DNA of 37,744 nt, from NCBI GenBank assembly GCA_021772755.1, contig JAJFLJ010000276.1, positions 1 to 37,744 on the forward strand, read 5' to 3'. Origin of the DNA: Candidatus Sumerlaeota bacterium. Lineage in GTDB: Bacteria; Sumerlaeota; Sumerlaeia; SLMS01; JAHLLQ01. Position 1 is the first letter of the stretch. Each line of letters starts with the position of its first letter. Position numbers and translations under genes: made by a program. Positions 10,587-34,163 of the stretch are shown piece by piece. The notes beneath the pieces were generated by a model, which was given only the letters and a program-made list of their open reading frames with translations, had not been told where the DNA came from and did no database searches.

Positions 10587-10680
10587 AACAGAGCCCGAAG
10601 GGCTCGGCTGATGTTAGCCCGGGGCTTCAGCCCCGGGTAACCCGCCGCCCCCCGATCCGAGTCCCGGAGGGACGACTGAA
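10587..10680 (+). repeat. REP-like three-hairpin element, copy A
   Basis: aacaGAGCCCgaaGGGCTCggctgatgttagCCCGGGGCttcaGCCCCGGG-N21-gaGTCCCggaGGGACgactgaa. Confidence 0.9.
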
Positions 10681-11160: not shown

Positions 11161-11255
11161 TTCAGCCGTCCCTCCGGGACTCGGTCGTACTTCGCGCTCA
11201 CCGACCCGGCACTGAAGTGCCGGGCTAACATCAGCCGAGCCCTGCGGGCTCTGTC
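11161..11255 (-). repeat. REP-like three-hairpin element, copy B (inverted relative to A)
   Basis: Revcomp: agaGAGCCC-like arm (gagcccgcagggctc), CCCGGCACttcaGTGCCGGG, GTCCCggaGGGACggctgaa. Confidence 0.9.
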
Positions 11256-11640: not shown

Positions 11641-11734
11641 AACAGAGCCCGAAGGGCTCGGCTGATGTTAGCCCGGGGCTTCAGCCCCGGGTAACCCGCC
11701 GCCCCCCGATCCGAGTCCTGGAGGGACGACTGAA
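11641..11734 (+). repeat. REP-like three-hairpin element, copy C
   Basis: Almost identical to copy A, including spacer. Confidence 0.9.
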
Positions 11735-19355: not shown

Positions 19356-21770
19356 TCACTTCCGCTCCACCCGCACCGCCAGCCCCCGCCCGTCCGTCTC
19401 GAACATCACCGCGCCTTGGCGGTCCGTTCGCCGCACGGTCGCGCCCGCGTTCTTCGCGCGTTCCACCACCGCCGCCGCCGGATGCCCGTAGCGATTCTCG
19501 CGGCCGCAGCTGAACACCACATGCGCCGGCGACGTCGCCGCCAGGAACGCCGCTCCCGTCGACCCCGCCGAACCGTGGTGTCCCGCCTTCAGCACCGTAC
19601 AGTCCAGCAACTCCGGATCGACGCCGAACACCATGCTCTCCTCCGCATCGAACTCCGCGTCCCCCGTCAGCAGAAACGACACCTCCCCCTTCGCCACCCG
19701 CAGCACCACCGACGCGTCGTTGCGGTCGTCGCCCTCCCGCGTGAACTCCGCCGTCGGATGCAGCACATCCACCGTCACTCCATCGCCGAATTCCATCCGC
19801 GCGCCCCGCCGAACCGTCGAGACCGGCGTCTTCCGCCACGCCACTTCCGTCGCCACCGCCTTCCACGTCTCCGTGTCGGCGAGGCTTCCGCCCACAAGCA
19901 CCTGCTTCACGTCCAGCTCCTCCAGCAACCGGTCCGCGCCACCGATGTGATCCGCGTCCGCATGCGTCAGCACCAGGGCATCGATCCGTTCTACGCCGCG
20001 CGTGCGAAGCGACTCCACCAGCCGCGCCCCTTCCGGTGGTCCGGTATCCACCAGCATCGTCGCCCCCGCGCTTCGCACCAGAATCGCGTCGCCCTGCCCC
20101 GCGTCGAGAAACTCCACCGTCAGCTTCGCATCCCCCGGCCCCGCCGCCGAACCGCCCAGCGCCACGAGACACGCCGCCAACACGCCTCCCATCGCCGACA
20201 GCGCACCGTCGAACGGCGTGAACCGTGGCCGGAGGCGCACCCACGCACCGCCCAGCAGGCACACGTACCATCCGCCGACCGTCCAGGCGCTCCACGGTCG
20301 CGCGCGCACCGAAGCGAATGGCAGCTTCGCCAGCCCCGACGCCACCCCGTCCACCGCCACCAGAGCCGTGTCGAGAACGCCGAACGGAATCTCCGCCAGT
20401 CCCGGTGCGACGAGTTCCACCCCCACGCAGAGAATCGTTCCCCCCAGCACCAGCGGCAGCGCCGGCAGAACCACTGCGTTCGCCACAGGCGCCGCCAGCG
20501 AGACCTCCCGCACGTGCGCCGCCAGAAACGGAGCCAGTGCCAGTTGAATGCACGTCGTGACGTACAGGAGTTGCACGGCCCGCACCAGCGGCTGCAGCCG
20601 CCAGTTCCAGCCCCGCGCCCTCCGTCCCGCCCACTCCTCGATCGCCACCGCACCCGGCGCCACCTGCACCAGCGTCGCCGCGCACAGGAATGAAAGCTGG
20701 AAACCCAGCTGCCACAGCGCCTTCGGGTTCGCGATCAGCAGCAGCAGCGCGACGCTCGACAGAGCACCCAGACGGTCCACCTCCCGCTTCAGAAGCGGCT
20801 GCATCACGAACACCGCCACCAGCATCGACGCCCGCATCGCGCTCGCCCGAAAACCCGTCAGCGTGCAGAACGCGAACAGGCCCGCCATCACCAGAATCGC
20901 CCGCGCCCGCGGCCCCGCCCCCGTCATCGCCGCCGCCAGCGCCAGCATGATCCCCACGATCCCCGCGTGCAGACCGCTCACCGCGAACAGATGCATCAGC
21001 CCGGCCCGCGTGAACGAATCGCGCTGCTCCGGAGAAAGCCACCCCGTCCGCCCCAGCATCATCGCCGACATCAGCGCCGCGTGGTCGCGGTCCAGATTCT
21101 CGTGCAGAATCTCCTCCATCCCGTTCGCGAGCCCGTGCATCGCCGCGCGATACCGCGCGAACGGCGAACGCCTCGCCGGCTCCACCGTCCACAACGACGC
21201 GCGGAACGACGCCCCCGCCCCCAGCGACGCCAGATAGCTCTCGAACGAACCTGCGCCCGGCCCGTCCGGCAGCGGAAGAAGCCGCCCGACACCATCGAAG
21301 ACATCGCCATCCACCGCCTCCCGCACCGCCGCCAGGTTCCCTCTCTCCGGATCGAGACGAACATAGACCGCTCCCGGAAACCGCACGACCTCGCCCGACT
21401 TGCCCAGTTCCGAACCCGGTGCCAGCAACACGCTCGCCCCCCGGTCCGTCACGCGCGCCGTCCCGTCGATCCGCCCGCGCACCTCCACCAGGCCGCCGGC
21501 GATCTCGTCGAACTGCGCGATCGCCGCTGCCGACTCCGTTCGCGCGCGCTCCTGCGGCACCTGAAGCAGACACCCCATTCCCGCGAACCCCGCCAGCAGC
21601 GCCGCCACCCGCGCTTCTCGCCGCATGGAAAGCGCGCAAGCCGTCACCACCAGCGCCGAAGGCCCCCACGCCGACTCCAGCCCCACCGCCCGCGCCGCCG
21701 CCATTCCCGCGATCGTCGCCAGCACTGCCAGAAAGGATGGTCGGGGGAGCGTGCGCTCGCCGAACTCCAT
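19356..21770 (-). CDS. comEC: ComEC/Rec2 competence DNA-uptake channel with C-terminal metallo-beta-lactamase-like domain
   Basis: MHLFAVSGLHAGIVG, VEFLDAGQGDAILVRS..., ALVLTHADADHIGG; alternative start at 21800. Confidence 0.93.
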   Translation of the reverse strand: MEFGERTLPRPSFLAVLATIAGMAAARAVGLESAWGPSALVVTACALSMRREARVAALLAGFAGMGCLLQVPQERARTESAAAIAQFDEIAGGLVEVRGRIDGTARVTDRGASVLLAPGSELGKSGEVVRFPGAVYVRLDPERGNLAAVREAVDGDVFDGVGRLLPLPDGPGAGSFESYLASLGAGASFRASLWTVEPARRSPFARYRAAMHGLANGMEEILHENLDRDHAALMSAMMLGRTGWLSPEQRDSFTRAGLMHLFAVSGLHAGIVGIMLALAAAMTGAGPRARAILVMAGLFAFCTLTGFRASAMRASMLVAVFVMQPLLKREVDRLGALSSVALLLLIANPKALWQLGFQLSFLCAATLVQVAPGAVAIEEWAGRRARGWNWRLQPLVRAVQLLYVTTCIQLALAPFLAAHVREVSLAAPVANAVVLPALPLVLGGTILCVGVELVAPGLAEIPFGVLDTALVAVDGVASGLAKLPFASVRARPWSAWTVGGWYVCLLGGAWVRLRPRFTPFDGALSAMGGVLAACLVALGGSAAGPGDAKLTVEFLDAGQGDAILVRSAGATMLVDTGPPEGARLVESLRTRGVERIDALVLTHADADHIGGADRLLEELDVKQVLVGGSLADTETWKAVATEVAWRKTPVSTVRRGARMEFGDGVTVDVLHPTAEFTREGDDRNDASVVLRVAKGEVSFLLTGDAEFDAEESMVFGVDPELLDCTVLKAGHHGSAGSTGAAFLAATSPAHVVFSCGRENRYGHPAAAVVERAKNAGATVRRTDRQGAVMFETDGRGLAVRVERK

Positions 21771-21913
21771 GTCGTCGCTCCGAACCCGGAATGGTGCCAT
21801 ACGGCCCCCGTCGCCGCACCGGCTCAAGCGCGAACGCGGGCTTTGCCGTTGCCACGGTTGCATCCCCGCAGCGAACAGAGACCCATCCGACCCTGTCCGG
21901 AGTCCGCACCCGC

Positions 21914-22885
21914 GTGCATCTCGTCGTCATCCTGCCGGCATTGAACGAGGAACGAACCATCCGCGAAGTCGTTCGCGCGATTCCCTCCGGCATGCCCGGC
22001 ATCCGCCGCATCACGACCGTCGTCGTCGATGACGGCTCCACCGACCGCACCTCCGACTACGCCGCCGCCGTTGGCGCCCGTGTCGTCCGCCATCCCGAGA
22101 ATCTCGGCGTCGGAGCCGCCTTCGCCACCGGCGTCGAGACCGCCCTGCGCCTGGGCGCCGACATCGTCGTCAACATGGACAGTGACGGCCAGTTCCATCC
22201 CCGCCACATCGCCGCCCTTCTCGAACCCATCGTCGACGGACGCGCCGGCTTCGTCACCTGCACGCGCTTCGGAGACGCCGCCCTGGAACCCCGCATGCCC
22301 TGGATCAAGCGCCGCGGCAACGCGTGGATGGCATCCCTGGTCAACGCGATCGTTCGCCCCGCGCGCCCCTTCACCGACGTCTCCTGCGGTTTTCGCGCAT
22401 ACACGCGCGAGACACTTCTCCTCATGAACCTCTTCGGCAGATTCACCTACACCCAGGAAACCTTTCTCGACCTCGCCGCGAAGAACGTCGCCATGGCCGA
22501 AGTCCCCATCCCCGTGCGCGGCGTGCGCAAGTACGGCGAGAGCCGCGTCGCCCGCAGCATCCTCCGCTACGCCCTCCAGACCAGCGCCATCATTCTGCGC
22601 ACCGTGCGCGACTACCGCCCCCTGGCGTTCTTCGGCTCCATCGGCGCCGCGACTCTCGCCTTCGGTCTTCTCCAGACAGGCTTCGTCGGCGTCCACTGGC
22701 TCCGCACCGGAGCCACCTCCCCCTGGCGCTCCCTCATCGTCACCGGAGGCGTCACGCTCGTGACCGGCTTCCTCCTCGTCGTCCTCGCCCTCCTCGCCGA
22801 CATGCAGGGCCGCAACCGCCGCATTCTCGACCGCATCCTCTATCACGCGCGGAAGCGCGAGTACGATCCGCCGGGCGATTCGTGA
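21914..22885 (+). CDS. GT2-family (DPM1/ArnC-like) polyprenyl-phosphate glycosyltransferase with C-terminal TM helices
   Basis: VVILPALNEERTIREVV, VVDDGSTDRT, NMDSDGQFHPRHI, two TM segments; GTG start. Confidence 0.9.
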   Translation: MHLVVILPALNEERTIREVVRAIPSGMPGIRRITTVVVDDGSTDRTSDYAAAVGARVVRHPENLGVGAAFATGVETALRLGADIVVNMDSDGQFHPRHIAALLEPIVDGRAGFVTCTRFGDAALEPRMPWIKRRGNAWMASLVNAIVRPARPFTDVSCGFRAYTRETLLLMNLFGRFTYTQETFLDLAAKNVAMAEVPIPVRGVRKYGESRVARSILRYALQTSAIILRTVRDYRPLAFFGSIGAATLAFGLLQTGFVGVHWLRTGATSPWRSLIVTGGVTLVTGFLLVVLALLADMQGRNRRILDRILYHARKREYDPPGDS

Positions 22886-24849
22886 CCAGACGCACGCTCA
22901 TCCTCGTGACCGCAGTCTCCGTCGCATGGACCATCGTGCTCTGGCTCTTCCACGATCCAGGCACCTTCAACATCGACGAAGTCCACTATCTCCTCGCCGC
23001 GAAATCCTTCGCCGAAACCGCCGGCTTCGTCGTGCCCAACGGCTTCGACCGCTTTCCCCACAACCTTCTCCTCTTCATGCACCCCGCGCGCCTCGCCGAA
23101 CTTCCCGGCCAGACCGGCATGACCGCGTTCATTCCGCCCTGGTACTGCATCTTCGCCGCGCCGTTCCACCGACTCTTCGGCCTTCCCGGTCTCTTTCTCC
23201 TCACCGCGCTCTGCTATGCCGCGTCGCTTGTGCTCGTCGCCGTGCTCGCGTCGCGCGCCGCCGCAGCACCCGACCGCGCCGCGTGGCTCGCACTTGCAGC
23301 CGCCGTCGGAGGAACCTACTGGGCCGACTACGGCGTCGCCGTCATCAACCACGCCCTCGACGCAGCCCTCGCCCTCGGAGCCATCGCCCTGCATCCCGCG
23401 TTCGCGCGGCGCGACGACCGCGCCGAACCCCTTCTCGCCCGCGCGTTCGCCTGCGGAATGCTCGCCGGCATCGCCACCGGAGTCCGCTACCAGACCGTCG
23501 TCACCGCCTTCGGCCTCGGCGTCTTCATGCTCGCCGCCCATCCCGCCGCCATCAGGCGCGCGTTCGCCTTCCTCGCCGGCTTCCTTCCCTGGATCGTCGC
23601 CCTCTCGATGGTCAACGCGGCGCGCTTCGGCGATCCCTTTCCCTTCTCCTACGGAGTGACGGCGAACTGGAAGACGGCGTCCCTTCTCGGGGTCTTCGTG
23701 CGGCACTTCCTCCCCTTCGTGCTGCTGCTCGCGCTCGCGGCGGGCATCGTCGCGTTTCTCTACGGCAGGCTCCTCGCGCGCTGGAGCGCGCTCCCCCCCG
23801 ACCGTCGCTCGACGATCGTCTTTCGCGCGATCGCCGCGCTTTGCGCGCTCCCCGTTCTCCTGCTGGCGCTTCCCCCGTTTCGCGCGCACGTGCTCGAGCG
23901 CTTCCTCGGCGTGTGGCTCTGGCCGGCGGGCGAATCGTGGCACGTCGCCGGCCCGCTCTCCCTCTTCGCCGGGGTGCGCCGCGCCTGGCTCCAGTCCTTC
24001 CCCCTCGCGCCGCTTTGCCTCGCCGCACCGGTCGTCGCCGCGTGGCGCGCCCGCCGGGCATCCGGCGTGCCGGACGCCGTTCTTCTCGCCGGCGCGCTGC
24101 TCTGGCTGCACACGCTCTTCGCCCTGCTGCTGCACAACAACGGCGGCTACTTCTTCAACCAGCGCTACCTGCTCGACGCCACTCTCTTCGGCGTCATCGC
24201 CCTCTCCACCGTCGCCGCGCCCGCTCTGGACAGGACGTCCGGCCCCGCCATCGGCGGGGGAGGAGTCGTCGCCGTACTGCTGGCGCTCTTCTATCTTCTC
24301 GCCGTCCAGAAGGGCGGCCCCGCCACGCCCTTCGAAGTCCTCGTCGACCGCGGCATTCTCCCCCTTGTCGCTCTGCTTCTCGTCATCGCCGTCGCGCTCT
24401 CGTATCGCGTGCCCCGGCTGCGCATCCTCGCGTCCATCCTTCTGCCCGTCGCACTCGTCCTTCCCCTCGTCGTTCATGCGTGGACCGACATGGCCGCATC
24501 CCACGAGTACCGCAAGACCCGCCGCGAGGCGTACGAACGTCTCCTTGCCGTCGTTCCCGACGGCAGTCTTCTCGTCGTCTATGGCGGCCAGCGCGAACCC
24601 GCCGGCCGTCTCAAGGAAAGCCGCGACGTCTGGGTCGCCGACGCCCAGCGCACCGAATGGGAGGGCGTCTCCGAACTTGTCGCGTTCGTTCGCGAATCCG
24701 GCGCCCGCGAACGCGTGTTCCTCTCTCCGGCGGGCGACGTTCCCCCCGCTCTTCTTCGCGAGACCCTCACCCTCGGCACGCTCGTCTTCGAGAAACCCTT
24801 CCCGCTCTATGAACTTCCCCGCGCCGCGCCCGGTTCCGCTCGACCTTGA
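22882..24849 (+). CDS. Polytopic GT-C-type glycosyltransferase (ArnT/PMT-like)
   Basis: 655 aa, many TM helices, acidic luminal-loop motif FNIDEVHYLLAAKSF; GTGA overlap with previous gene. Confidence 0.75.
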   Translation: MTRRTLILVTAVSVAWTIVLWLFHDPGTFNIDEVHYLLAAKSFAETAGFVVPNGFDRFPHNLLLFMHPARLAELPGQTGMTAFIPPWYCIFAAPFHRLFGLPGLFLLTALCYAASLVLVAVLASRAAAAPDRAAWLALAAAVGGTYWADYGVAVINHALDAALALGAIALHPAFARRDDRAEPLLARAFACGMLAGIATGVRYQTVVTAFGLGVFMLAAHPAAIRRAFAFLAGFLPWIVALSMVNAARFGDPFPFSYGVTANWKTASLLGVFVRHFLPFVLLLALAAGIVAFLYGRLLARWSALPPDRRSTIVFRAIAALCALPVLLLALPPFRAHVLERFLGVWLWPAGESWHVAGPLSLFAGVRRAWLQSFPLAPLCLAAPVVAAWRARRASGVPDAVLLAGALLWLHTLFALLLHNNGGYFFNQRYLLDATLFGVIALSTVAAPALDRTSGPAIGGGGVVAVLLALFYLLAVQKGGPATPFEVLVDRGILPLVALLLVIAVALSYRVPRLRILASILLPVALVLPLVVHAWTDMAASHEYRKTRREAYERLLAVVPDGSLLVVYGGQREPAGRLKESRDVWVADAQRTEWEGVSELVAFVRESGARERVFLSPAGDVPPALLRETLTLGTLVFEKPFPLYELPRAAPGSARP

Positions 24850-25748
24850 CCCTCCGCCCCGCCCCCAATCCCCAACAACCCGCCCCGGGAAACGCCGTGG
24901 ACCGCATTCTCTGCATTCGATTCGACGTCGATACGCCCGTCTGCATGACCGGCGGAATGCCCGCGCTTCTGCGTCTGGCGCGGGAAGAGGAACTGCGCTT
25001 CACCTTCTTCTGCAACATGGGACGCTCCATCTCCTGGCCCTCCGTTCTCCGTAGCCGTGCCCGGCGCGCGTCCTCCTCCGAGCCGCCGAAGCGCAAACTC
25101 GGCATGGCGGCGAAACTCGGCTGGAGCGGACTCCTTCGAACCATCGCCCTGAACCCCGAAGTCGGCGCCGCCAACACCGGCGTTCTGCAGCGCGCCCTTC
25201 GCGACGGACACGAACTCGGTCTTCATGGCGGCCGCAATCATTCCGCATGGCACCATGACGCCATTAACTGGCCCGCCGAAACCCTTCGCGACGAAATCCG
25301 CAGCGGCCTCGATGCGCTGCGCAGGACCGGCGCCGCGAACATCGACAGCTTCGCGTCCCCCGGCTGGACGAGTCCCCCCGCACTGCCCGGCGTTCTCGCC
25401 GAATTCGGCTTCGCCTACCTCTGCGACGCCAGCGGGCCTTCCCCCTCGCCCGTTCGCCCCAATCCCTCCGACGAGCGAATCACCGACGTCTTTACCAGCG
25501 TTGTCGGCAACGGAGGCGTCGGCTACCTGGAGGAGTGCGCGGCCTCCGGCGAATCGCCGGCTGTTCTTCGCGAACGCTATCGCCGCGATCTCGAACGCGC
25601 AGGCGCCTTCGCCATGATGTACGACCATCCCTGCTTCGCCGGTCGTCGCGGCCTGCCGCTGCTGCGCGACTTCATCGCCGTCGCCCGCGAACTCGGCTTC
25701 GCCATCCTTCCCCTTCGCGAGGCGGTCCCTGCGGTTCGCCATGATTGA
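24846..25748 (+). CDS. NodB-homology polysaccharide deacetylase, ArnD-like
   Basis: RILCIRFDVDTP, HELGLHGGRNH, SFASPGWTSPPALPGVLAEFGFAYLCD; TTG start overlaps the upstream stop. Confidence 0.82.
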   Translation: MTLRPAPNPQQPAPGNAVDRILCIRFDVDTPVCMTGGMPALLRLAREEELRFTFFCNMGRSISWPSVLRSRARRASSSEPPKRKLGMAAKLGWSGLLRTIALNPEVGAANTGVLQRALRDGHELGLHGGRNHSAWHHDAINWPAETLRDEIRSGLDALRRTGAANIDSFASPGWTSPPALPGVLAEFGFAYLCDASGPSPSPVRPNPSDERITDVFTSVVGNGGVGYLEECAASGESPAVLRERYRRDLERAGAFAMMYDHPCFAGRRGLPLLRDFIAVARELGFAILPLREAVPAVRHD

Positions 25749-26634
25749 ACTCTCCGCCGAAACCCGTTCGCGCATCGACCGCGCGCTGAAGAACCGCACT
25801 CTGCGCGCCGCCTCCTTCGGTGCCGCCGTCCTGCTCTTTGCCTTCGGTCTCTGGCGTGCCACCGCGAAACGGCCCGACCTTCTCGACGATCTGCAATGGC
25901 TTCCCCTCGCCGCCGTCGTCGCCCTCGTTCCCGTCACGCTTCTTCTGATGGCGCTGCGCTTCATGGTCTCCTCTCGCGCCATCGGCTCGACCGCGACCTT
26001 CCCCGCTTCCTGCAAAGTCGTCGTTCTCGGCGCCGCGGCGAACATGCTCCCCGTGCCTGGCGGCGTCATGGTGCGCGTCGCCGCGATGTCCAGGGGCGGC
26101 GCGACGCTTTCCCGCAGCGTCGGCATCAACATCGACCTCACCATCTGCTGGCTCGGCGTTTCCGCCCTCTATTCCGCTATTGCCGCGGCGGCCGTCGGCA
26201 ACGCTCCACTCGCGGCGGTCTTCTCCATCGTTGCCCTCGGAGGAGTCGGCCTCGCCATCGCGCTGCTTCATCGCAGGATTCGCGACCTGCGCACCTCCCT
26301 CGCGCTCGCGCTCATCCAGACTCTCGCCACCTTCGTCGACATCGCCCGCGTCTGGCTTTGCTTTCGCGCCCTCGGTCTCTCCACCGACATCCTGCGGGTC
26401 ATGGGCCTTTCCTTCGCATCCGTCGCCGGGTCGATCGTGACCATCGTGCCCGCCGGCCTCGGCGTGCGCGAGTGGGTCGCCGCTCTCCTCGCACCCGTCT
26501 TCCAGCTCGCCCCCGAAGCCGCCTACCTCGGTTCCGCCCTCAACCGCGTCGCCGCACTCGCCGTCGTGCTCGTTCTCTCCTCCGTCCTGTTTCTCGTGCA
26601 GTGGCGCGCCCCGAAGGGAGGCGTCGCGCCATGA
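25741..26634 (+). CDS. LPG_synthase_TM/UPF0104 (AglD-like) membrane protein, putative flippase
   Basis: Multi-TM; PVPGGVMVRVAAMSRGG and VPAGLGVREWVAALL signatures. Confidence 0.8.
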   Translation: MIELSAETRSRIDRALKNRTLRAASFGAAVLLFAFGLWRATAKRPDLLDDLQWLPLAAVVALVPVTLLLMALRFMVSSRAIGSTATFPASCKVVVLGAAANMLPVPGGVMVRVAAMSRGGATLSRSVGINIDLTICWLGVSALYSAIAAAAVGNAPLAAVFSIVALGGVGLAIALLHRRIRDLRTSLALALIQTLATFVDIARVWLCFRALGLSTDILRVMGLSFASVAGSIVTIVPAGLGVREWVAALLAPVFQLAPEAAYLGSALNRVAALAVVLVLSSVLFLVQWRAPKGGVAP

Positions 26635-27575
26635 TCTTCGACCGTCCCGTTCTCATCGTCGGCGCACCCCGCTCCGGCTCGAGTCTCCTTCAGAAGCTCG
26701 TCCGCGAGCACCCCGCCTTCGTCTCCGTTCCCCGCGAATCCGACATGATCTGGTTTCGCCACACCCATCCCGAACGCAACGCGTGGGACGGCGAAGGCGT
26801 TCCTCCGTCCCGCCTCTCCGACGATGTCTGCGCCGAAATCCGCAGCGACTTCGCCCGCCTCGCCGTTTCCGCCGCGGCATGGCGCCGGTGGTCCTCCCTC
26901 GGCCTCATGGAGAACCCCGCCACCGCCGCCATCGTGCGCGCGCTCTATCCGCTCGCAAAGCCCATCTTCCGCATCGCGCATTCCGCCAGGCCCCGCCCCG
27001 ACCGCCCCGTGCGTCTCGTCGACAAGTCCGTCCACATGGGTCTCTGGCTCGACCTCGCGCTGAAGACCTTTCCCGACGCCATCGTCCTGCACATCGTGCG
27101 CGATCCCGCCACCTGCATTCCCTCCATGATCGGCGGATGGCGCGAACCGGGGCGCTTCGAGACCTTCGACGTGCCGGCCCCGCTGGACATCGGCGGCTGC
27201 ACCGCGACGAAGTGGAAGTTCCCCCTCCCCCCGGGCTGGCGCGACTGCGTCAAAGCCCCCGTCGGCGACGTCGCCGCGTTCCAGTGGGCCGCCATCCAGT
27301 CCGCCATTCTCGCCCACGAAGCCGCTCTCGGCGAACGATACATGCGCGTTCGACTCGAAGACCTCTCCGCTTTCCCCGGGCGTGAAATCCAGGGACTCTG
27401 CGCCCACATCGGAATCGCTTTCGACGCGCACTTCCAGCGCGCCGCCGCCGACCTTCCCGTCGTGAACGCCGCGGAACGGAAACGCGCCGGCACGGGCGCC
27501 GCAGCCCAACCGGACCTTCGCCTGCGCGTCGCGCGCATCGCCGAACGCCTGGGCTACGCGGAGTCGCCCACGTGA
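26631..27575 (+). CDS. Sulfotransferase family protein
   Basis: 5'-PSB loop VLIVGAPRSGSSLLQKLV; 3'-PB-like LHIVRDPATCIPS. Confidence 0.87.
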   Translation: MIFDRPVLIVGAPRSGSSLLQKLVREHPAFVSVPRESDMIWFRHTHPERNAWDGEGVPPSRLSDDVCAEIRSDFARLAVSAAAWRRWSSLGLMENPATAAIVRALYPLAKPIFRIAHSARPRPDRPVRLVDKSVHMGLWLDLALKTFPDAIVLHIVRDPATCIPSMIGGWREPGRFETFDVPAPLDIGGCTATKWKFPLPPGWRDCVKAPVGDVAAFQWAAIQSAILAHEAALGERYMRVRLEDLSAFPGREIQGLCAHIGIAFDAHFQRAAADLPVVNAAERKRAGTGAAAQPDLRLRVARIAERLGYAESPT

Positions 27576-28441
27576 CATCCCGCTTCGAAACCATTCCGAA
27601 GACCTTCATCGTTTCCGCCGGACGAACCGGCACGCAGTTCTTCGCCGACACCCTCGGCCCCCTCGTCCCCGGATGCCTTGGCGTTCACGAACCCGACAAG
27701 ATCGACCTTCACACTCTCGGCCCCGGACCGCTTCTGCGCCGCCTCGCGCGCCAGGGCGTCTGGCGGCCTCTCGTCCTCAAGTCCCTCGGCCTCTCCGGCG
27801 CGCGCAATCATTCGCTCAACCGCCTCGCCGGCCGTATCGGTCGCGACGAAGCCGTCGCGCGACTCGTCGCCGACCGCAAATGGCTCCCGTCCGGCGCGAA
27901 GCTCTACGTCGAGTCCAACGCCCAGCTCTTCGGCCTCGTCGACGACCTTGCGCGCATGGAGAACGCCCGCGTCCTCGTGGTCGTCCGCGACGCCGGCGAA
28001 TGGATTCGCTCCTGGCGCGGCAAGCGCTGGTACTCCGAACGGGACTGGCTCGCCCGCATCGACGTGCTCGGCCTTCGGCGCCTCTCCCCCCGCAACGCGG
28101 GCGTCGCCGAACCCGCCTGGGACCGATGGAACCGCGCCTCCAAACTCGCCTGGGTCTGGTGCTTCATGAACGAATCCTTCGTTCAGGCCGCCGCCGAAGA
28201 CCCGCGCACCGTGCGCCTCGTGCGATTCGAAGACGTCTTCCTCCGCCGCGATGCCGACGTCATCGGCCCGATGCTCGACCACGTTTCCCACGGCACGATG
28301 ACCGACGACGCGAAGACGCGCTTCATGGACTGCCTCGCCACGAAGATCAACGCCGGCCGCACCGCCGAACCGCTCCCCGAAGAGGACATCGCCCCCGAAC
28401 TCCTCGACCGCATCGCGCGCCTCCGCGACCGCCTCGCCTAA
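27572..28441 (+). CDS. Sulfotransferase-like protein
   Basis: FIVSAGRTGTQFFADTL P-loop, VLVVVRDAGEWIRSWRGK; GTGA overlap. Confidence 0.78.
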   Translation: MTSRFETIPKTFIVSAGRTGTQFFADTLGPLVPGCLGVHEPDKIDLHTLGPGPLLRRLARQGVWRPLVLKSLGLSGARNHSLNRLAGRIGRDEAVARLVADRKWLPSGAKLYVESNAQLFGLVDDLARMENARVLVVVRDAGEWIRSWRGKRWYSERDWLARIDVLGLRRLSPRNAGVAEPAWDRWNRASKLAWVWCFMNESFVQAAAEDPRTVRLVRFEDVFLRRDADVIGPMLDHVSHGTMTDDAKTRFMDCLATKINAGRTAEPLPEEDIAPELLDRIARLRDRLA

Positions 28442-28695
28442 CTCCGTCGCCTGACCGCGACGCCCTCCTTCACAAGTGTTCCGCCCCGTCGCCATGCGAA
28501 CCCGCGCCGACCGCAGGCACCCCTCTGCGTCTTCGCGTCTCCGCGCGAAACCCGACTCTCACCCCAACAACCTCCTCACCATGCCCGCCCGTCTTCGCCG
28601 ACCTCTGCGTGCTTCGCGCCTTCGCGTTCCGAACTTCCCCGCATCTCCCAACGCACCTCCGCCTTTCCGCCAACATGAGCCCGAAGGCCTCGGCA
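28414..28695. repeat. ~280-bp direct repeat, left copy (contains the 3' end of the sulfotransferase CDS)
   Basis: Aligns with 29631-29925 at roughly 85-90% by eye. Confidence 0.88.
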
Positions 28696-28753: not shown

Positions 28754-29533
28754 CTACTCGACGCCGAACGTGTCGAGCTCGACGGGGAGTGTGCCAGTCG
28801 GGTCGGTGATCAGCGAGTTGAAGTAGAGGGTGACTGGTGTCGAAGGCGTCGCGTCGAAGTCTCGTGCCCGGACCTCGACACCGGTAACATCGGACGAGGG
28901 AGACGTGCCCTTGACAAGGGGAGCATCGTGCGTTCTCCCGGTACTGACGAAGGCGGTCCCGGAAGGTAGCGGCTGGAGCTCCACATCGTAGGTCGCACCC
29001 GCCTGAAGCGTCCAGGTCACGCGAATCGGCGTGGTTGCGGGGATGGTTGTCACAGTCGTTGAATCGTCGTCGATCTGCCAGAAGGAACTCGTCTCGTCGC
29101 GCCGCACATACGACACGGGCCCGAACGTCCTCAGTGCGCCCCAGGCGACATAGTCCGTGGAGGTCGTCGTGCCGGACTCCAGGGTCATGGATATCTTCGT
29201 TCCCGCAGGTTGAGGACTGGGAAACCCGCGCCGGGCCACGTGGATCGTCCCGCCGTCGGTCTGCATCTTCCATGATACTCCGCCGACATCGATGACTCCG
29301 GCCCCGCCGTCGTCGGCGGAACTCTCGACCGTCACCGCCCCTCCGTATCCGCTGTTGAACCAGGCGTCGAACGACGAAGTTCCGGTGTTCTCGTTCTCGC
29401 CATCCGCCAGGCCGTCGGAGTAGGCGGCTTGGCTGGCGTCGTCTTCGTACTCCCAGGCGGGGGCGGGGGCGGCGAGCGCCAGGGCGAGAATAGAAAGCGC
29501 GGTGGCGCAAGGCAACGAACGGTATCGTGGCAT
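28754..29533 (-). CDS. Secreted protein with signal peptide; C-terminus ...GTLPVELDTFGVE
   Basis: MPRYRSLPCATALSILALALAAPAPAWEYEDDASQAAYSDGLADGENENTG...; 259 aa. Confidence 0.8.
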   Translation of the reverse strand: MPRYRSLPCATALSILALALAAPAPAWEYEDDASQAAYSDGLADGENENTGTSSFDAWFNSGYGGAVTVESSADDGGAGVIDVGGVSWKMQTDGGTIHVARRGFPSPQPAGTKISMTLESGTTTSTDYVAWGALRTFGPVSYVRRDETSSFWQIDDDSTTVTTIPATTPIRVTWTLQAGATYDVELQPLPSGTAFVSTGRTHDAPLVKGTSPSSDVTGVEVRARDFDATPSTPVTLYFNSLITDPTGTLPVELDTFGVE

Positions 29534-29630
29534 CGGGGGGGCTCCGGACAAAGGTGTGGTTTGACCTACTGCTTGTTGGAGCGCCCCGGTCCTGTCAACT
29601 CGCAATCCCACGCTGCACCCGCACCCGCAC

Positions 29631-29925
29631 CGCGCGCCTCCGCGACCGCCTCGCCTGAGCTCCGTCGCTTGACCGCGACGCCCTCCTTCACAAGTGCCCC
29701 GCCCCGTCGCGATGCGAGCCCGCGCCGACCGCAGACACCCCTCTGCGTCTTCGCGTCTCCGCGCGAAACCCGACTCCCGTGCGAACCTCTTCACCATGCC
29801 CGCCCGTCTTCGCGGACCTCTGCGTGCTTCGCGCCTTTGCGTTACCAACTTCCCCCCATCTCCCGACACCTCCGCATCCCAACGCGCCTTCGCCCTTCCG
29901 CCAACAGAGCCCGAAGGGCTCGGCT
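29631..29925. repeat. ~280-bp direct repeat, right copy
   Basis: cgcgcgcctccgcgaccgcctcgcct...ccctctgcgtcttcgcgtctccgcgcgaaacccgact...gcccgaagggctcggctg. Confidence 0.88.
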
Positions 29926-29996
29926 GATGTTAGCCCGGCACTCGGTGCCGGGAAACCGAACGCCTCCCATCCCCGAGTCCCGGAGGGACGACTGAA
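29903..29996 (+). repeat. REP-like three-hairpin element, copy E
   Basis: GAGCCCgaaGGGCTC, CCCGGCACtcgGTGCCGGG, GTCCCggaGGGAC. Confidence 0.9.
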
Positions 29997-30020
29997 CATC
30001 CCAACCGCTTGCCCGCACGA

Positions 30021-30064
30021 CAGGCGCATCGCGCCTGGTCTTCACAGCCTGCGGCTACCGCAGG
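30021..30064. other. Two adjacent stem-loops, CAGGCGC-atc-GCGCCTG and CCTGCGG-cta-CCGCAGG
   Basis: Direct inspection; 3' of the ankyrin lipoprotein. Confidence 0.7.
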
Positions 30065-31135: not shown

Positions 31136-31254
31136 TTCTGCCCCGACCGTTCCCTTTCGCGGGCAGGCTTCGAGCCGTCTTTCCCTGCCCCCGAACGCCC
31201 GATGCTTGTCGCCCAACGCCACCCTCGCTTCCCAACCGGCCCCGCCTTCCCGCG

Positions 31255-31347
31255 AACAGAGCCCGAAGGGCTCGGCTGATGTTAGCCCGGCACTCGGTGC
31301 CGGGAAACCGAACGCCCCCGCCCCCGAGTCCCGGAGGGACGACTGAA
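31255..31347 (+). repeat. REP-like three-hairpin element, copy F
   Basis: As copy E; shared downstream flank cccgcacgacagRcgcatc. Confidence 0.9.
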
Positions 31348-31513
31348 CACCCCGACCGCCTGCCCGCACGACAGACGCATCCCGACAGGACCGGAACCGC
31401 GAAGGAATCGCACTGCGGGGGTACAGAAAGAGATGAGAATCAAAACTCACCCCGACTCTACTCCCGACGGTACGAAGCGGGGACGGGTCACGTCGTGTCC
31501 CTGTTCTGCCACA

Positions 31514-33077: not shown

Positions 33078-34163
33078 CTACCCTCCGAACCGCCCCACGA
33101 CCTCGTCCACGATCGTCCGCGTCGGCGACTCCCCGAAGTCCGCGAAGCCGAACGCCAGGTCGCGATAGTTCTCCAGAAACCCGTCCACCGCGCTCTCCTC
33201 GTACCGCGAGAGCACCACGTTCCGCCCGATGCCCTCCTGCCGCTCCGTCGCCTTGCGCAGCAGCAGGCACGGCTTGCCCATGTAGAAGCACTCCTCCTGA
33301 TTGCTGCCCCCGTCCGTCGCCAGGAACTCGCTGTTCCACACCAGCTTGATGAACCGGAAGTAGTCGTAGCGCGGACGCAGCCGAATCCGCGGATTCCCCT
33401 TCAGCCGCTCCATCATCCCGAACCGCTTCAGCTTCGCCCGCGTCGGCGGATGCAGAATGAACAGCGCCGGCATCCGTTCCGCGATGCGCTCGACCAGCCC
33501 CACCACCCGTTCCATCGCCGCGCGGTCGAAGATGTTCTCGAACCGGTGCAGCGAAACCACGCAGTACCTTCCCCGCGGAACCGGAACGTCCACGCTCTCC
33601 ATCCGCGCCGCCGCCAGCCGCAGCGAATCCAGCAGCGTGTTGTGCACCGTGTCGATCTTGCGCCCCCGGTGCCCGCGCAGGTTCTCCACCGCCCACGCGC
33701 CGGGGCAGAAATACACGTCCGTCAGCCGGAACGTCAGCACCCGCGTCAACTCCTCGGGAAACGGGTTGAACAGATCGAACGACCGCAGTCCCGACTCCAC
33801 ATGCCCCACCCGCAGGCCCCGCACCCGCGCCAGCAGCGCCCCCAGCAGGCACGAAAACGTGTCGCCGTGAACCAGCACGATGCCCCGGCGGTCGCCGCGA
33901 AACGGATCCGGACGCCGCAGCAGCGCCCTGGCCAGAATCCGCGCCATCCACACCGCCATCGCCGGCACCGATTTGATGTCGCGCCCCTCGTGCAGCACCA
34001 CGTCCGGGTCCCGCACCCCGAAGTTCTCCCGCAGATCCCGGATCGTCTCGTGGTGCTGGCCCGTGAACACGAAATTCCACGCCGCGCCCCGCGATTCCAG
34101 CTCCGCCATCACGGGGCCCATCTTCACCAGCTGCGCCTTCGTTCCGATCACCACGTGTATCAT
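33078..34163 (-). CDS. wecB: UDP-N-acetylglucosamine 2-epimerase family protein
   Basis: MIHVVIGTKAQLVKMGPVMAEL..., VHGDTFSCLLGALLARVRGLRVGHVESGLRSFDLFNPFPEE, TDGGSNQEE. Confidence 0.88.
   Translation of the reverse strand: MIHVVIGTKAQLVKMGPVMAELESRGAAWNFVFTGQHHETIRDLRENFGVRDPDVVLHEGRDIKSVPAMAVWMARILARALLRRPDPFRGDRRGIVLVHGDTFSCLLGALLARVRGLRVGHVESGLRSFDLFNPFPEELTRVLTFRLTDVYFCPGAWAVENLRGHRGRKIDTVHNTLLDSLRLAAARMESVDVPVPRGRYCVVSLHRFENIFDRAAMERVVGLVERIAERMPALFILHPPTRAKLKRFGMMERLKGNPRIRLRPRYDYFRFIKLVWNSEFLATDGGSNQEECFYMGKPCLLLRKATERQEGIGRNVVLSRYEESAVDGFLENYRDLAFGFADFGESPTRTIVDEVVGRFGG

Follow-up and report, generated by a model that had tools for sequence, protein, structure and literature searches.

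What product is made by a run of six closely packed genes in which relatives of the Arn pathway stand next to sulfotransferases? The genes lie in a window of 37,744 nucleotides, the whole of contig JAJFLJ010000276.1 (C197) of the 3.96-Mb draft genome of a Candidatus Sumerlaeota bacterium (GCA_021772755.1; G000), which is 81% complete. A preliminary description had read them as a self-contained Arn-like pathway consisting of an ArnC-like GT2 glycosyltransferase (gene 1), an ArnT-like GT-C transferase (gene 2), an ArnD-like deacetylase (gene 3), an LPG_synthase_TM protein (gene 4) and two sulfotransferases (genes 5 and 6). Arn-like logic was indeed retained in a conserved gene set, but the backbone proved closer to a three-component system and the conserved unit comprises five genes. 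We consider it moderately probable that the module is a three-component system of GT2, flippase and GT-C transferase, into which an ArnD-like N-deacylase and a cytosolic sulfotransferase have been inserted, and that it exports a sulfated, probably amino, sugar to the envelope.

The five genes, together with gene 6, are proposed to be co-transcribed as one module. We infer the sugar, the site of its sulfation (O or N), the order of the steps, the sulfation of the exported sugar and the acceptor as follows. At the cytoplasmic face of the membrane, gene 1 would load polyprenyl phosphate with a sugar taken from a nucleotide sugar; this would most likely be a hexose or an N-acetylhexosamine. The N-acyl group of the lipid-linked sugar would be stripped by gene 3, a metal-dependent deacylase of the ArnD type, and sulfate from 3'-phosphoadenosine 5'-phosphosulfate (PAPS) would be added in the cytosol by gene 5, in this species probably also by gene 6. 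The lipid-linked sugar would then be carried across the membrane by gene 4 and transferred outside by the GT-C enzyme, gene 2, to an envelope acceptor such as lipopolysaccharide (LPS), another glycan or a protein. GT2 loading, flipping and GT-C transfer form an established three-part scheme, found in the glycosylation of lipoteichoic and wall teichoic acids (PMC7389260). In the present operon, both the GT2 and the GT-C enzyme are encoded, and the flippase candidate is the PF03706 protein, whose role is predicted. Since no hydrophobic segment was found in the products of genes 3, 5 and 6, these are probably cytosolic and would act before flipping; gene 3 should thus work on the cytoplasmic side, like ArnD.

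The six plus-strand open reading frames (ORFs) of the preliminary description were all recovered, free of internal stops (Table 1). For comparison, the sole other genome of the same genus that was searched is a 'Candidatus Sumerlaeia bacterium' metagenome-assembled genome (G001, contig JANQSL010000275). Genes 1-5 occur there in identical order beside an RND pump gene and comEC, which is divergent from the cassette in this genome also, and their identities to the present genes are 83, 64, 59, about 67-68 and about 59-60%, respectively. With dN values of 0.12-0.36 and dS values of approximately 2 or more, which are so near saturation that the dN/dS ratios are approximate, the sequences indicate that genes 1-5 are under purifying selection. 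Gene 6 is missing from the relative's locus, in which gene 5 is followed by an unrelated, HODM-like gene of opposite orientation, and no homologue of it was found in 40 other genomes. The conserved unit therefore comprises five genes, which these data restrict to a single genus, and gene 6 is an addition in one genome. The cassette was not found in three genomes of the same family (G002-G004), where comEC has other neighbours, nor was the five-gene set recovered from approximately 35 further genomes within the class and phylum. Hence the six-gene order, a search for which in related genomes the preliminary description had proposed, was recovered for genes 1-5 in one relative but for gene 6 in none, and its wide conservation was rejected. 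Distant deacetylase matches in G013, G021 and G030 were likewise rejected as related cassettes because their gene contexts differ or the matches are too weak, as was a strong orthologue of gene 1 in G021 (47% identity), which has different neighbours. Nothing was found in the viral contigs searched or in a plasmid search with genes 2 and 6.

The earlier statement that every junction overlaps by 4 or 8 bp holds when the longest starts are taken (4, 4, 8, 4 and 4 bp), but the overlap between genes 2 and 3 (24846/24849) is probably not real, because in the relative gene 3 lies in the frame of gene 2 directly behind its stop, so that an overlap is impossible there, and an ATG follows approximately 36 bp downstream. 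The gene 3 start at 24846 is a TTG, and the start corresponding to that of the relative is probably the GTG at 24897. The relative keeps the overlaps of genes 1 and 2 (4 bp) and of genes 3 and 4 (8 bp), and that of genes 4 and 5 amounts to 11 bp there. Apart from the junction of genes 2 and 3, the overlaps are upheld. The start of gene 1 is uncertain between 21791 and 21914, because its frame extends upstream into the 5' end of comEC, which is divergently oriented.

Gene 5 is by its sequence clearly a PAPS sulfotransferase: it matched PF13469 with 82 bits and also PF00685 above the Pfam cut-off, has no transmembrane (TM) segment, and carries both PAPS motifs, the 5'-phosphosulfate-binding PRSGS at 13 and the 3'-phosphate-binding RDPATCIPS at 157. 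Gene 6, in contrast to the claim of two sulfotransferases, gave no significant family match (best Sulfotransfer_4, E 0.3) and no significant PDB or fold support, its model being unusable (pLDDT 40). It does contain GRTGT at 17, RDAGEWIRS at 139 and RFEDV at 218 in this order. The ordered three-motif pattern matched none of 20,000 shuffles and, among 1147 ORFs, only gene 6, gene 5 and the orthologue of gene 5, although this test is weakened because the pattern was written after these proteins had been inspected. By these motifs, gene 6 is likely but not proven to be a sulfotransferase. The PAPS-binding residues expected of both proteins are thus present as motifs, not as features of structural models. 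PAPS itself can be made, as two APS-kinase matches occur with cysD and cysN on contig C251 (apsK-cysD-cysNC).

Counted as distinct places, PF13469 genes number about 9 in G000 and 12 in G001, compared with 0-4 in relatives, and the remaining copies in G000 are scattered singly among unrelated genes. None of these other loci was accepted as a further cassette, as no related genes lie alongside. As each of the two genomes has approximately 8-11 other scattered PF13469 genes, sulfotransferases act on other targets in this organism, and gene 6 is not conserved; both points would fit an alternative in which the three-component system and its deacylase export an unsulfated amino sugar, while gene 5 (and 6) sulfates the acceptor or another glycan and is merely co-expressed. 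However, in both genomes gene 5 is retained and its start overlaps the preceding gene, whereas the scattered copies stand alone, and we regard this explanation as unlikely.

Gene 3, like genes 1, 4 and 5, is firmly assigned to its family in Pfam. ArnD was its best and only NCBIfam match (E 5e-17), but as the score of 62 bits is far below the cut-off of 382, the protein is a relative rather than an equivalog. The ArnD structure 8t0j was both its best PDB match by sequence (E 8e-11) and its top Foldseek match (E 4e-9, TM-score 0.57-0.62), the latter with a model of moderate quality (pLDDT 67). A tblastn search against plasmids matched 105 records, 93 of them from Pantoea, and among the matches listed 15 of 15 were annotated arnD. 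Gene 3 is 29% identical to Pantoea ArnD over 93% and has in common with it the residues D27, D29, H127, H132 and H261 as well as the stretch that separates the first metal-site motif from the second. The NodB fold with the metal and catalytic residues of the ArnD family is present, and sequence, modelled fold and metal-site residues together identify gene 3 as an ArnD relative of predicted deacylase activity, in agreement with the preliminary description.

Since the conserved five-gene set includes both a deacylase and a sulfotransferase, a special case of the sulfated-sugar export module has to be considered. Here a bacterial N-deacetylase of the ArnD-like kind and a separate PF13469 N-sulfotransferase, like a split heparan sulfate NDST, would act on a single polyprenyl-linked hexosamine, and an N-sulfo-hexosamine would be exported to the envelope. 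Deacylation would give the free amine needed by an N-sulfotransferase, and an N-sulfated polysaccharide has been reported for Pontiella, among whose genes are PF13469 sulfotransferases (PMC7356697). Yet the sequence gives no way to tell N- from O-sulfation, and we grant this variant a slim chance.

Gene 1 matched PF00535 in Pfam (79 bits), and its NCBIfam ranking was headed by AglJ (127 bits), followed by PpgS, a polyprenyl-phosphate-GalNAc synthase (97), and further down by ArnC (37), none of these scores reaching its family cut-off. DPM synthase, GpgS and ArnC are among the proteins matched in the PDB. This supports a polyprenyl-phosphate sugar synthase of the AglJ/PpgS/ArnC type and upholds the ArnC-like GT2 assignment. 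Gene 2 gave no significant Pfam match and, in NCBIfam, matched NF047440 (LA_3751/LA_3752 putative glycosyltransferase, E 1e-9) below its cut-off. It combines about 12 hydrophobic segments with an acidic motif in the first external loop, as is expected of GT-C enzymes; this loop carries 'FNIDEVHYLLAAKSF' after TM1, and D32/E33 are invariant in the relative. The active site of ArnT is D55/E56 (PMC7801869), and by inspection D32/E33 sits where ArnT has these residues. The GT-C class and the DE loop of the proposed ArnT-like transferase were therefore retained, but no ArnT match was obtained in NCBIfam, PDB or profile comparison (hhalign), which would place gene 2 outside the ArnT family. The leading rank of AglJ, together with the Halobacterium N-glycan that is sulfated by two enzymes, could also suggest that gene 1 starts a longer, AglJ-like lipid-linked oligosaccharide, completed by glycosyltransferases elsewhere and put on protein by gene 2. 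However, the AglJ score falls far under the family cut-off of 325 bits, the operon holds no further glycosyltransferase, and gene 2 showed no match to an oligosaccharyltransferase in Pfam, NCBIfam or PDB; this origin of the product is very improbable.

Gene 4 matched PF03706 with 47.8 bits against a cut-off of 33.4, as the LPG_synthase_TM label had implied, and TIGR00374 with 33.8 bits, below that family's cut-off. The PF03706 family has been linked to lipid flipping (MprF), and from this link and the logic of the operon we infer a flippase role. An ArnE/ArnF flippase is not encoded in the operon, where gene 4 is the PF03706 protein and no other gene is left. No place spanning both ArnA domains was found in G000 (81% complete), G001 or G002, where partial matches to formyltransferase-like and SDR-like sequences lay apart from each other, and action of gene 3 on a formamido sugar supplied by ArnA, as in the ArnD family, is accordingly not supported in these genomes. 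As the draft genome yielded no ArnA fusion, 4-amino-4-deoxy-L-arabinose (L-Ara4N) is unlikely to be the sugar, as the preliminary description had anticipated, and a literal Arn pathway for it was rejected on this ground, on the missing ArnE/F and on a gene 2 that is not ArnT. The genome contains lpxC, so that lipid A is a possible acceptor. A homologue of UDP-N-acetylglucosamine 2-epimerase (PF02350) is located at 33078-34154 on the minus strand, approximately 4.6 kb from the operon, and could be a sugar supply.

Several points weigh against the export of a sulfated sugar by this module. Conservation is shallow, since the set is known from two genomes only, both of them drafts, and the pathway as a whole is a computational prediction. 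In gene 3 the spacing between the first and the second His exceeds that of ArnD by one residue, the apsK, cysD and cysNC genes may serve ordinary sulfate assimilation, and the literature searched contained no PF03706 protein proven as a polyprenyl-phosphate-sugar flippase. Moreover, the operon sulfotransferase is less striking because the genus has many scattered sulfotransferases.

Table 1. Genes of the cassette and the neighbour marking its position in the window.
Feature	Position	Strand	Basis
Gene 1: GT2 polyprenyl-phosphate glycosyltransferase, C-terminal TM region	21914..22885	+	PF00535, NCBIfam, PDB
Gene 2: multi-TM GT-C-type glycosyltransferase, first external loop motif D32-E33	22882..24849	+	NF047440, hydrophobic segments, motif
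Gene 3: putative ArnD-like (NodB-fold) lipid-linked sugar deacylase	24846..25748, likely start GTG 24897	+	NCBIfam, PDB, fold, residues
Gene 4: PF03706 (LPG_synthase_TM / flippase-like) membrane protein, candidate flippase	25741..26634	+	Pfam
Gene 5: cytosolic PAPS sulfotransferase	26631..27575	+	PF13469, PF00685, PAPS motifs
Gene 6: probable second sulfotransferase, accessory	27572..28441	+	three motifs only
comEC: divergent neighbour marking the cassette position, not in the pathway	19356..21863	-	PF03772

No sigma-70-like promoter was found at the locus, and the terminator-like matches fall inside genes. Directly after the stop codon of gene 6 begins a direct repeat of approximately 210 bp (28442-28652 and 29660-29867, 90% identical), shorter pieces of which are also present elsewhere in the genome, and a second repeat pair occurs at 29891-30038 and 31243-31389. 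The Acido-Lenti-1 RNA motif (RF01687) occurs three times within approximately 1.1 kb, at 10592-10637 (minus), 11205-11252 (plus) and 11646-11691 (minus). Exported-looking proteins encoded at 28754-29728 (minus) of the window and at L049:16142-16894 share an 'EDDASQAxYxDGL...DDGGAGVIDVGG'-like region; the window copy gave no Pfam match, and these proteins are possibly a small repeated family in the genome.

Among known systems, the backbone comes closest to a three-component GT2/flippase/GT-C system to which two modifying steps have been added, rather than to a complete Arn pathway. The Gtr, GtlA-GtcA-GtlB and CsbB-GtcA-YfhO systems (PMC7389260) likewise unite a cytoplasmic GT2 acting on polyprenyl phosphate, a transporter and an external GT-C in a small gene set. 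Their flippase is GtrA/GtcA, whereas here a PF03706 candidate is accompanied by an extra ArnD-like deacylase and sulfotransferase(s). With the Arn pathway (arnBCADTEF) the module shares an ArnC-like GT2, an ArnD relative and a GT-C with a DE loop, but it differs in the ArnA fusion, which was not found, in an operon without ArnE/F, in a gene 2 outside the ArnT family and in the added sulfotransferase. Transfer of hexosamines to lipid A or arabinogalactan is known from Francisella (FlmF2/NaxD/FlmK), Bordetella (Lgm, GlcN, lgmA-D) and mycobacteria (PpgS). These systems are similar in their polyprenyl-phosphate-HexNAc, in deacetylation where NaxD is present and in GT-C transfer, and gene 1 matches the PpgS profile; NaxD belongs to a different deacetylase family from gene 3, and we know of no sulfotransferase in any of the three. 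Sulfated envelope sugars are already known in bacteria. An archaeal precedent is provided by Halobacterium salinarum, whose N-glycan is sulfated within a polyprenyl-phosphate-linked pathway by two dedicated enzymes, Agl30 and Agl31 (PMC11980604). Unlike the present module, that pathway yields a tetrasaccharide transferred by AglB, and Agl30/Agl31 are annotated as alkaline-phosphatase-domain/sulfatase-like proteins, not PF13469 (PMC11980604). If our reading is correct, it would offer a defined five-gene set for in vitro reconstitution and a PF03706 protein with a candidate function as polyprenyl-sugar flippase, and it would show what some of the many sulfotransferases of this Sumerlaeota genus are for. 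We are not aware of any earlier description of a compact, dedicated pathway in which a sugar is both deacylated and sulfated while attached to its lipid carrier, and the five-plus-one gene combination appears to be new, though built from known kinds of enzyme.

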